64,000 nt of DNA, from assembly GCA_038501195.1 (NCBI GenBank), contig JBBPUQ010000010.1:1505501-1569500 (forward strand). Reading direction: 5' to 3'. Shown one piece after another: positions 4,083 through 8,975 of the stretch. The first letter of the stretch is position 1; each line of letters starts with the position of its first letter. The translations under genes were made by a program, and so were the position numbers. The notes under the pieces are model-generated. The model ran no database searches. It was not told the DNA's origin and was given only the letters and a program-made list of their open reading frames with translations. This DNA comes from Nemania diffusa. Its lineage: Eukaryota; Ascomycota; Sordariomycetes; Xylariales; Xylariaceae.

Positions 4083-7000
4083 ATGGGACGAATCACGATG
4101 GTGTCTTTCATTGCAGTGACCATCACCGGGCTCATCCACGGCGCTCTTGCCTTGAGCCCCGGGGCCGCCTCTTCGGTGCAAGCGCTGTTGAGTAATTCAC
4201 CAATTCCTACCCGTGCAGCGCCGCTGGCTACGTCTACACCGGATTTGAGCGCTCTGAAGGCCTCCATCCTAGCCGGCAACTACTCGCGTAAGGTCGACCT
4301 AGCCCTCGGCCGGAGCTGTCCCCTGCCGTGCACTGCCGACCCGAAGCAGTGGTATGTCTACCACAGTCTCGATCGTTTCGCAAAGTGCGACGGTACCCTA
4401 CTATTGGACTTCGCTCTCATCAACCCGCTCAACGACTCCAGCTCGCCCGTTAGCATCGCGGCCTGTACTGCGAACCTGGCGGATATCTCTGCCCCAGCTG
4501 CGAACGAGACATGTGTGCACAGTGGCGTCTCCCTGAAGGAGACGAATTCATCCCTAGAGCTCCGGTCCTCCGGGTCTTCCTCGGCGTCTGTTGCCGAAGT
4601 GGTGGCTGCTTTGAAGCAGCTCGAGGCTTACTCTACCCTTACCGGCGCCGGCTGCAATGAGACAATTAACTTCGCAATGTCTGGCTCTGTTGCCGTGGGC
4701 ATATACGCCGGCTCAAGGCTCACCAACCAAGGACTCGTCTCTTCTGTCATCACCCAACTCAGTACCCATGTGCAGGGCGAGGGGAAATTGCCTGAAGAGC
4801 TCCTAGTGCAGCTCTGTGAGAACCACTCGGCACGTTACTCCATGGGAATCTACATCAGCACCAACTCAGATCTATCTGCTGCTCAGCACGCGGTCCAGTC
4901 GTGGAAGAATAACACCTGCGTCACCAGTGTGGGCGCAACTGTCGATACTGCGTGGCAGAAAGTTTCTTACCTTGTCCCCTCGCGGATGGGGAGCAACTCA
5001 TCTGCCGTCAACAGCACCATCCCCTCGTCTAATTCCTCAATAATCTCAAACCGAGCCGCTTTTCCTCAATCCGACGCTGGCAAGCTAGGCATCAGGGCCA
5101 CGTGCTCCACCGTTCAGGTCGTTGCGCAAGACACCTGCACAACGCTTGCCGCCGAGTGCGGCATCACACCTGCACAATTTACAGAATACAATCCCAGTTC
5201 AACTTTGTGCTCCACCCTCATAGCCGGCCAGCATGTGTGCTGTAGCTCTGGGACATTGCCAGATTACACGCCCTCGCCCTACTCGAACGGGACATGCTAC
5301 ACCTACACGGTCATAAAGGATGACTCTTGCTCGTCTCTCGCTGCCAGCTACGATATTACCGTAGATGATATCGAAACCTGGAACGCGAACACGTGGGGTT
5401 GGTACGGCTGCTCGGATCTTCTGGCAGGCTACACTATCTGTCTTAGCTCCGGCTACGCTCCGCAGCCCTCAAACGTTGCCAACGCTGTTTGCGGCCCTCA
5501 GGTCAACGGCACGACCATCTTGCCGGGTGGTACCAACTTCTCTTCTATCAACGAGTGCCCGCTGAACGCTTGCTGCGATATCTGGTGAGTTCCATCTATC
5601 CCGTAACATAGGTTCGTATCTTTCATCAGACGAAAACGCTGACATGAATTCTTTATAGGGGTAAATAGCAATTGTCTTTTAAGAATCGTTTTCAAAAGAA
5701 TATCATACTGACCATAATGTGCTAATGTAGGCCAGTGCGGCACGACGTCCGAGTTCTGCACGATCTCAGAATCTAGTACCGGGGCTCCGGGAACTGCGGC
5801 TCCAAACCAGAACGGTTGCATATCAAATTGCGGCACCGAAATCATCACGTCGTCCGCACCAGCCTCCTATTTCAAGATTGGCTACTTTGAAGCATACGAT
5901 TGGTCGCGTCCTTGTTTGAAGGCGTCGGTTGCAGATATCAACACCACCGCATTCACGCATATCCATATGTCGTTTGCTACCTTGAACGCTGACTTTTCTG
6001 TCAACATTACTGATATTAGTGCCCAACTTCCATATTTGCAAGGCCTCCAAGGTGTCAAGCGCATAGTATCGTTCGGAGGCTGGGCTTTCTGTACCGACCC
6101 TAGTACTTATATGATTATGAGAAACGCCGTGAGCACTGAGGCCAACCTCAACGCTTTGGTTGCCAGCGTTGTGGACTTTGTGAAGGAATATGATCTTGAT
6201 GGTATCGACTGGGACTGGTAAGTTGAAAAAAATCTATGATATCTCCATCTCAATCTCGTCATCTCCTAGTATTACTGACACACGTGATAGGGAATATCCA
6301 GATGAGCCCGATATTCCCGGTATACCAGCGGGCACACAGGCTGACAGTACTGGCTACTTCCTTTTCCTCTACTTATTGAAGAATGCATTGCCCTCCGGCA
6401 AAACGATCTCGTTTACCGCTCCAGCTTCGTTCTGGTACCTGCAGTACTTCGACATCGAGGCGATGAGTCAGGTTGTCGATTATATCGTTTTCATGACCTA
6501 CGATTTGCACGGCCAATGGGACTACGGCAACGCATTCTCCGACCCGGGCTGCTCGGGAGGAAACTGCCTGCGATCTCATGTCAACTTAACCGAGACTATC
6601 AATGCTCTCTCGATGGTCACTAAGGCGGGCGTTCCCTCTAACATGATCGCCGTCGGAGTCACGGACTACGGGCGGTCTTTCGAGATGACCGAGGCCGGCT
6701 GCTGGACCGAGCTGTGCACGTATGTCGGCCCGGACTCTGGCGCCGAACCGGGTATCTGTACTGGAACGGCGGGATACCTCGCAGACTACGAGATCAACCT
6801 GATCAGCTCTGAGAACCCGTCCGCGGACCTCCTATGGGACTCAGCATCTTATTCTAACATGATGGTTTGGAACAGTACCCAATGGGTCGCCTATATGAAC
6901 TCTACAAACAAGGCAGTGCGTACAGAGCTATACGAGGGCCTGACTTTCTTGGGAACTGCCGACTGGGCTATCGATCTAGCAGATCCGGGTACAGACGGTG

Positions 7001-8975
7001 AAGATAACGGGTCTGGCAGCTCAACCGACCCGAGTGCCTCAACGATCTATGTCAACCCGGACATCTGGAGTTCAGCAACACCAGTGGTAACTGCTCTACC
7101 GGGAGTAACGTTGGTCTGGCCACCGCTGCCTCTTACCACCCCCACCACAATCACGTTCCCTCCTTGGACCACCACTGTCTCGTACGGGAGCCTTACGTCA
7201 ACGACGAGCACAGGTGCCGACGGCTCGGTAACGACGGAACCGTGGTATGTATACATATCATACTTGACGGTCATCACCATCCCACCCGGTAAGTGACCCT
7301 GCTTCTTTCTTCTGCCGTCGTCACTACCATCGCGCTCTAGTTGCTGACCCAAATTATCGATTCATAGTTACGACTACAGCAATTCCGGTCTGGGGTGTGA
7401 CTCTTCCGTCAGGTTCATCTACGGGCGGAACCATCGTTCTCTCAAGTTCGATTCAGCCAGATCCCTTCGACATTACGATCTACCCGTAAGTAATCCCTTA
7501 ATTTTTACTGGCCGTTTCGTCCATTTATCCGTACCTGTAGCTGACTGATCATGGAAGAATTGTTGGTGGCACTACTACTATCATCGGCGCCACGGAGACC
7601 ACCACAAGCTCCGCGACAGGAGTAATCATCTGGGGAACTGAGACTTACTCTCCTCCTCCCCAAACAGAAACCCTCGGAGGCACCACGACTGTCAAGGGAG
7701 GTACCACTTTACCGCCAGTGACAAGTAAAGTCACTCCTAACCCGTACCCTACAACGGTACCCTCGACCACAGACCCAAAACTGAACCCCCACACCCCTAA
7801 ATGGACTTCGGGGGGGCCACCAGGTCCAACGGCTAAGCCTGGCTGCCTTGGATGTGGTACAACATGTAAGAAGGCATCCTCTCGTTTGGCATCCTCTCGT
7901 TTGCTCCTTGTCATGTTTATCTATTACTGTATTACCTCCATCAATCAGGAACTGACAGTTCATCTCCAACAGGCTTCCTTTTCTGCGATCCCGGCTGCCC
8001 CTTCTGTCCTCCAGGGGTTTTCGGCTCCGGCGGCGGCGGTGGCGGCGGTGGTGGCGACCCCGATGACGAGAACTCCTCAAGCTCGTCGTCCTCGAGCTCC
8101 GACTCGGCCTATCTCGCGACGATTTACATCGCCAGCGACGACGCCGAGACCTGGCCCGCGACGTTCGACGCCTACGCGGACATCACGGCGGCGATATCCG
8201 CCGAGGCGTCCTACTGGGACTCGGTCTGGGGCGTGACCAGCCCGCCCAGCGTCGTCACCATCACGACCACGGTGACGCCGCCGCCGACGACGACCACATC
8301 GACGGTGGTGGTGGTGGTAACGCCGACGGCGGACTGCGAGCTTTGGGACGCGGGCTTCGCGTACGAGATCGAGATCTACAACATCAACCACGTGAGTTAC
8401 CGCTGGCGTCATTTTCTTCCCTTTCTAGTAACTTAAGAGCTCCCGAAATGTCTCAGGGGTATGTTTCGGGAGCATGTTTCGAGAGTTGTAGAACTACGCA
8501 AAAGAGTAATTACTAACTCCAGCGGTTATAGTGGTCCACGGACGGCGGCGCCGGGCTGAAGAAGCAAGAAGACGGCTGCGGTGCTGTGACGGGGTGGGAC
8601 TACGTTGATGAGACAGACACCGAATACGCCCACGTCTGGTTCTACATCGACTTCTTCATCAAGGCCGGGTGCATCGAGCGCGCCATCGTCTCGGCCGGCG
8701 GGCCCAAGCTCTCGTGCGCCAAGGGCGGGTTGGCGAGGAAGCGCGACGAGATCGAAGGCGGCAGCGAGCACGAGCGCCGCGCGCAGATACCCGCGCAGCC
8801 TGTGTACCAGGCGGCCTCCGGGGCGGATCTCGCGTCGCTGACGAGTGTTTACGGCGCGCCGCCGGCGTCTGCCCCTACTTATACCCCGGAGGTGTGGACT
8901 AATACGACGCCTATCGTCACAGTATCAGTCATCACGACGACCTTGGTGACTACTCCGACTCTTTCCATGGGATAG
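4083..8975 (+). CDS. Subgroup C LysM-CBM18-GH18 chitinase
   Basis: Eight exons: 4083-5584, 5659-5660, 5731-6217, 6291-7288, 7368-7485, 7558-7865, 7973-8391, 8532-8975. Every junction is in phase, giving 1,425 residues. Domains: signal peptide 1-24 (ALA-L), the N-terminal Cys-rich region typical of subgroup C (about 60-300), LysM1 (about 341-387), LysM2 (about 405-453), hevein-type CBM18 (about 470-535, eight Cys at 470, 492, 497, 498, 504, 511, 531, 535), GH18 (about 548-890), then Ser/Thr/Pro-rich linkers, a CxxC-rich patch, a Gly tract, an acidic/Ser run and a conserved-looking C-terminal module. GH18 marks are SFGG (615-618), DGIDWDWE (658-665, catalytic acid Glu665) and MTYD (732-735). 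The enzyme should hydrolyse chitin at or outside the cell wall; subgroup C members are linked to fungal-fungal attack or wall remodelling. It is intact, although it ends about 700 bp from the mutated AT block. Confidence 0.92.
5585..5730 (+). other. Two introns flanking a 2-nt microexon (GG, 5659-5660)
   Basis: Exon 1 ends ATCTG at 5584 and meets GTGAGT; an in-frame TGA lies at 5586-5588, so splicing is required. The downstream exon starts at 5731 with GCCAGTGCGG. Joining these directly gives the wrong phase. The sequence between contains TTTATAG-GG-GTAAAT: an acceptor ending at 5658, two bases GG, and a donor at 5661. With them the protein reads ACCDIW-GQCG, the conserved hevein-domain run. 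Both flanking introns (74 and 70 nt) have branch-like sites (GCTGAC; GCTAAT). Confidence 0.8.
6218..6290 (+). other. Intron inside the GH18 catalytic motif
   Basis: A 73-nt GTAAGT...GATAG intron splits the codon of Trp664, so that DGIDWDW lies upstream and the catalytic Glu665 downstream. If retained, the frame stops at once (TAA at 6219-6221). Confidence 0.9.
7873..7902 (+). repeat. 15-bp perfect tandem duplication within a chitinase intron
   Basis: GGCATCCTCTCGTTT is present twice head to tail (7873-7887, 7888-7902) just inside the donor of the 107-nt intron 7866-7972. The duplication lengthens the intron without touching the splice sites or the branch-like ACTGAC near the acceptor. It looks like recent replication slippage. 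Confidence 0.9.

Follow-up and report, generated by a model that had tools for sequence, protein, structure and literature searches.

Introduction

According to an older study cited in PMC12940212, Arabidopsis, Drosophila and humans have exons of two to five bases. The Arabidopsis APC11 gene carries an exon of a single nucleotide, which was proven with constructs (Guo and Liu 2015, PMC4674806); when its A was changed to TT, the resulting artificial 2-nt exon was reported to be spliced correctly in Arabidopsis and mis-spliced in rice. Reads spanning a plant 1-nt exon mostly failed to map before the aligner was given that exon (PMC8831610). In fungi, a 1-nt exon was described in CYP621A of Fusarium, with RNA reads from two species and 20 orthologues with DNA (Nelson and Syed 2026, PMC12940212). 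This base lies in an AG-G-GT island within an apparent intron, which is 139 nt long in F. graminearum. Phrase searches of an open library gave such 1-nt exons and, among the papers listed, no fungal 2-nt exon.

The consensus signals of fungal introns are given as GURWGY for the donor, RYURAY for the branch point and YAG for the acceptor, and splice sites in Ascomycota are described as being paired by intron definition (PMC12403724).

Here we analyze a chitinase gene of Nemania diffusa located in a stretch of 64,000 nucleotides, referred to below as the window (G000:C10:1505501-1569500; the assembly comprises 55.6 Mb in 16 contigs). Positions 5585-5730 of the window, 146 nt in total, very probably represent two complete, ordinary U2 introns of 74 and 70 nt surrounding a constitutive coding exon that consists of two nucleotides, GG.

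Results

Structure of the chitinase gene

The gene model occupies positions 4083-8975 of the + strand and consists of 8 exons encoding 1425 amino acids. The product is a class V (GH18) chitinase of the LysM-CBM18-GH18 type. The features of the model are listed below; P0001 is the annotated protein of Hypoxylon argillaceum.

4083..5584, + strand: exon 1, coding for the N-terminal part, which includes the LysM region, and for the start of CBM18, and ending with TG, bases 1 and 2 of the W501 codon (translation; alignment with P0001 over 1420 residues)
5585..5658, + strand: predicted intron 1, 74 nt (donor, branch-point motif and acceptor present)
5659..5660, + strand: predicted microexon GG, exon 2 (sole WGQCG path among those enumerated)
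5661..5730, + strand: predicted intron 2, 70 nt (donor, branch-point motif and acceptor present)
5731..6217, + strand: exon 3, the remaining CBM18 (GQCGTTSEFC...) and the start of GH18 (translation, domain matches)
6218..6290, + strand: intron 3, 73 nt
6291..7288, + strand: exon 4, the remainder of GH18 and the stretch after it
7368..7485, + strand: exon 5 (consistent with P0001)
7558..7865, + strand: exon 6 (consistent with P0001)
7973..8391, + strand: exon 7 (consistent with P0001)
8532..8975, + strand: exon 8, including the TAG stop (consistent with P0001)

Two GH18 matches were found within the gene, and the LysM domain was assigned through the near-identical P0001, where LysM is listed. 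The last intron (8392-8531) is 140 nt long, about twice the length typical of this gene; this phase-0 intron calls for no additional exon. Downstream of the gene the GC content falls from about 35-40% to 1-3% at about 9.7 kb and then stays below 16% (2-kb bins) up to the end of the window (9700-64000). The edge of this low-GC block is about 0.7 kb away from the chitinase stop codon. Our guess is that it is a block of repeats, nearly saturated with RIP-like mutations and possibly centromeric.

The junction at 5585-5730

Exon 1 ends at 5584 with ...GAT ATC TG and exon 3 begins at 5731 with GCCAGTGCGG (GCCAG...). Intron 1 starts with the donor GTGAGT (5585-5590) and finishes with the acceptor TTTATAG ending at 5658, while intron 2 starts with the donor GTAAAT (5661-5666) and finishes with TAG ending at 5730. 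The two bases between TTTATAG and GTAAAT are GG at 5659-5660, precisely where the first-pass annotation of this DNA had placed them; they provide the third base of the Trp501 codon and the first base of the Gly502 codon. With GG included the junction becomes ...ATCTG-GG-GCCAG and is read as TGG GGC CAG TGC GGC, giving WGQCG within CCDIWGQCG, and the frame continues CCDIWGQCGTTSEFC into GH18. Wheat germ agglutinin could be aligned without gaps at the CC..WG.CG stretch, as CCSQWGYCG, and hevein also matches this stretch. The GG form scored 24.9 bits for Pfam CBM18, which is below the cut-off of 27.8; the GG-skipped form gave no match.

The direct 5584-5731 join is two bases out of phase, in agreement with the earlier claim, and reaches a stop at codon 516. 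If intron 1 or both introns are kept, the stop is at codon 502, the TGA that had been said to follow at once on read-through; if intron 2 alone is kept, it is at codon 504. Because all four of these computed failures stop ahead of the GH18 catalytic domain, inclusion of GG is required for the enzyme. At the DNA level, then, GG has the attributes of an ultra-short (1-15 nt) microexon: it is flanked by GT-AG introns and is needed for the frame of a conserved protein. We infer that both introns are spliced and that GG is included constitutively.

Comparison with the fungal consensus showed that the donor of intron 1 matches at 6 of 6 positions; the A of its branch-point motif GCTGAC is 16 nt from the intron end, and the acceptor is TAG. 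The donor of intron 2 matches at 5 of 6 positions, with a mismatch at +5; here the A of the motif ACTGAC is 19 nt from the intron end, and the acceptor is again TAG. The other five introns of the gene are 73, 79, 72, 107 and 140 nt long, and in each the A of the branch motif is found 12-20 nt from the end.

How often chance would produce such an arrangement was estimated by dinucleotide shuffling (20,000 rounds) of the 146-nt interior, the island being required to have 45 nt or more on either side. YAG/GG/GTR appeared in 16 of the 20,000 shuffles, and in none when branch motifs in both halves and the donor match were also required. When any two bases were allowed between YAG and GTR, the corresponding numbers were 446 and 2.

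These numbers bear on the possibility that 5586-5729 is removed in one step as a single non-canonical intron with TG...TA ends. Since 5585 and 5730 are both G, the mRNA produced with the GG exon would be letter-identical to the product of this removal, and alignment of reads may show just one gap of 144 nt here. We nevertheless regard one-step removal as very improbable: GT-AG sites are available one base off on each side, and the full set of inner signals, seen in 0 of 20,000 shuffles with GG and in 2 of 20,000 with any two bases, would have to be a coincidence. TG-TA ends are not known from U2 or U12 introns, which also counts against it.

The identity of the two products means that a junction read containing GG, or the finished mRNA, is no proof of two introns. 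The detection of GG in cDNA, the test suggested in the first-pass annotation, therefore cannot separate a microexon from one-step TG..TA removal. It would distinguish inclusion, with the predicted cDNA ...ATCTGGGGCCAGTGC, from skipping, with ...ATCTGGCCAGTGC. Splicing intermediates or mutants of the inner sites could separate two introns from one step. The predicted partly spliced RNAs are TG directly followed by GGGTAAAT, where intron 1 is gone and intron 2 kept, and TTTATAG/GG/GCCAG, where intron 2 is gone and intron 1 kept.

Homologous proteins at the site

Conservation of the site in orthologues was judged from annotated proteins only. The set consisted of 153 distinct proteins from three listings (the best 120 of 1816, 16 of 16 and the best 120 of 282 rows). 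Among these 153, exact WGQCG is present in 140 and WGECG in 3; a looser motif is absent only from P0001, P0006 and P0132, the last of which has WGQYG.

The nearest protein among the matches listed is P0001, followed by those of Ustulina deusta, Xylaria cf. heliscus and a record labelled Lasiodiplodia mahajangana. P0001 is identical to the chitinase at 1398 of 1420 aligned residues, and its sole internal gap is due to nine extra residues between CCDIWG and QCG, an insertion found in P0001 alone among the 153 proteins listed. It corresponds to a middle exon of 29 nt, in which the acceptor of intron 1 is shared, GG is extended by 27 bases up to a donor GTTTTC, and the final acceptor is shared. 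A weak donor GTTTTC matching that of the deposited H. argillaceum model is present at 5688-5693, inside intron 2 of the chitinase gene.

A longer middle exon of this kind, 29 nt with nine added residues, has the deposited model P0001 in its favour. For the chitinase gene it is hardly credible, since it would be read as WGK*QLSFKNR, with an in-frame TAG within intron 2, the insertion is unique to P0001 and the CBM18 score drops to 15.2 bits. We think that the P0001 model itself is mis-annotated here, with GG seemingly lengthened to 29 nt: to join these two sites the model needed a 2-mod-3 filler, and in our view the one chosen is wrong.

The first-pass annotation had suggested that orthologues may be mis-annotated at this point. 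This appears to be right for H. argillaceum and does not extend to orthologues in general. Two of the four closest relatives among the matches listed (P0001, P0002, P0003 and P0006) are broken here, but P0002 and P0003 read WGQCG; P0004 and P0118 (81%) read WGECG and WGQCG, respectively. The missing Pfam CBM18 label in P0001, P0002 and P0003 was considered as a sign of mis-annotation and rejected, the GG form being below the cut-off as well.

The same comparison is relevant to a sequencing error or a decaying gene, in which two bases would have been lost at the exon edge and a single 146-nt intron would contain GG by chance. An intron of this length is not impossible, given that the longest other intron of the gene has 140 nt. 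However, the 1425-aa frame is otherwise intact, the GG island bears complete splice signals and the H. argillaceum model needed its filler at the same place, so we give very little credence to error or decay.

Enumeration of splice paths

All GT/GC-AG paths with one or two introns of at least 35 nt each were enumerated for sites from about 5500 to about 5770, and those which kept the frame without a stop through SEFCTISESS... were retained. WGQCG was produced by none of the eight single-intron paths and by one of the 86 two-intron paths, that with the GG exon. The claim that GG restores the CBM18 run W-GQCG was thus borne out, with no other path among those enumerated doing so. The GG path is also the only two-intron path enumerated that has consensus-like donors and YAG at both acceptors.

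The existence of eight in-frame single-intron paths leaves room for a different structure, for instance splicing from a donor at 5530 (GTACCA) or 5527 to 5731 with removal of part of CBM18. A join of the 5530 type is annotated in P0006, where the donor is shifted to the equivalent position and 19 residues, including part of CBM18, are lost. The P0006 model is a poor one, with several other large gaps, which weakens it as independent support. In seven of the eight paths one or both cysteines of the CC pair are missing; the remaining path, with a GC donor at 5575, retains CC at the cost of DIWG. No donor among the eight fits GURWGY. The 5530 form, the sole alternative single path scored, reached 8.0 bits for CBM18. 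We consider splicing along any such path highly unlikely; a cDNA with TNFSSINECPLNACCDIWG would argue against it.

Other arrangements of the two introns were also considered. Nested in-frame paths, as in a stwintron, did not yield WGQCG in any of 13 cases (12 of donor type and one of acceptor type, the two types covered), which rules out a stwintron among the donor-type and acceptor-type nestings enumerated. A search of the genome with the intron pair returned only the pair itself at E up to 1 (the search skips very common words), so that no second copy was found that would indicate a repeated sister stwintron or an introner element. Tandem duplication of one intron was rejected because introns 1 and 2 are not similar (213 of 500 shuffles scored as high). 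Likewise, the RNA fold of the stretch was not better than that of shuffles (z +1.18), and terminal inverted symmetry joining the outer sites, or another special RNA structure, was rejected.

Other CBM18 genes of the genome

Searches of the genome hit four paralogous genes (on C7, C5, C3 and C9) and a further CBM18 gene on C4. Additional weak matches, two at C3:1764735-1765324 and one at C4:5493592, are outside the five-gene intron count given here. The two paralogues nearest at the site are uninterrupted by an intron and read CCDVWGQCG (C7) and CCNVWGQCG (C5). In the C3 gene, a distant chitinase (L014, G000:C3:2922298-2925348), the same glycine codon is split by a 68-nt intron, CCSQY-GG/A-FCG, in phase 2; it sits one base downstream from where intron 2 lies in the chitinase gene. 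This C3 intron ends with AAG and is without an RYTRAY branch-point motif, and its borders are less sure than those in the chitinase gene. A 57-nt intron is located just ahead of CC in the C9 gene (L023, G000:C9:2864785-2868312), and a 68-nt intron in the codon following CC in the C4 gene (L015, G000:C4:1153787-1156852).

Overall, an intron lies within or beside the CC..WG.CG motif in three of the five other CBM18 genes resolved, at three different positions, none of which is exactly either of the two positions of the chitinase gene. The motif looks like a frequent intron site in this genome, and the view that introns at the motif are confined to the lineage of the chitinase gene is too simple.

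Discussion

The arrangement of two complete introns around GG suggests how the junction would be processed. Because splice sites in Ascomycota pair across introns, a 2-nt exon would not need to be recognized as an exon. Almost no space separates the AG of intron 1 from the U1 site of intron 2; the two could hardly be bound together, so the introns would be removed in turn. If intron 1 were to leave first, TGGG/GTAAAT would remain as a usable donor, and either order of removal would give the same mRNA.

Two routes to this structure are open: either a second intron was gained two bases away from an older one, or GG was lost from an exon edge and the loss was rescued by a cryptic AG-GG-GT island. 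The latter route was proposed for Fusarium CYP621A (PMC12940212). We lean towards the gain of a second intron, because both introns are of typical size with branch points of their own and because the C3 intron is one base away from intron 2. Given that position of the C3 intron, one of introns 1 and 2 may be older than the other. The broader proposal, that this is the first constitutive 2-nt exon of a fungal nuclear gene, common at least to this species and H. argillaceum and arisen by gain of a second intron, is put forward tentatively and with considerable doubt.

If the proposal is true, the locus would be an 'un-nested' neighbor of the stwintron, with two full introns removed in turn and two coding bases between them, and a natural test of the minimum distance between 3′ and 5′ splice sites. 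With these sites two bases apart it would offer a compact natural substrate for splicing studies. The GG exon would also be the second fungal case near the lower limit of exon size, in an unrelated gene. The H. argillaceum model illustrates how a gene model can be bent around a tiny exon, the outcome being an exon of 29 nt and a break in the chitin-binding motif. Since the outer junctions carry repeated bases, RNA that has been spliced correctly can pass for the product of a single non-canonical intron, so that tiny exons of this sort may be discarded even when RNA-seq is available.

Several known systems resemble the chitinase junction. Like the Fusarium CYP621A exon (PMC12940212), it is found in an ascomycete nuclear gene as an AG-exon-GT island inside an apparent single long intron. 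Both cases share rescue of the phase in a conserved motif and an intronless relative that serves as a length marker, and the finding that nearly all CYP621A gene models are wrong at the exon can be likened to the chitinase case. The differences are that the exon has two bases and not one, that the gene encodes a chitinase and not a P450, and that DNA of one genome was used here against 20 orthologues and RNA reads there. APC11 (PMC4674806) likewise has a constitutive, ultra-short exon that is needed for the frame and was earlier mis-annotated, but it is a plant gene with a natural exon of one base, whereas the chitinase exon is fungal and of two bases. The microexon of Xlr2 in Trichoderma virens (PMC11121469) is also from a filamentous ascomycete; its inclusion is regulated and it belongs to another gene, while inclusion of GG in the chitinase appears to be obligatory. 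Finally, the [D1,2] stwintrons of Hypoxylaceae and Xylariaceae (PMC12403724, PMC9024468) come from the same order, which is rich in stwintrons, and similarly consist of two crowded U2 introns removed consecutively; in both situations the product is altered if the outermost sites are joined directly. In those stwintrons, as described, a splice signal is interrupted and no coding base lies between the introns, whereas the chitinase introns are each complete, with two coding bases between them.
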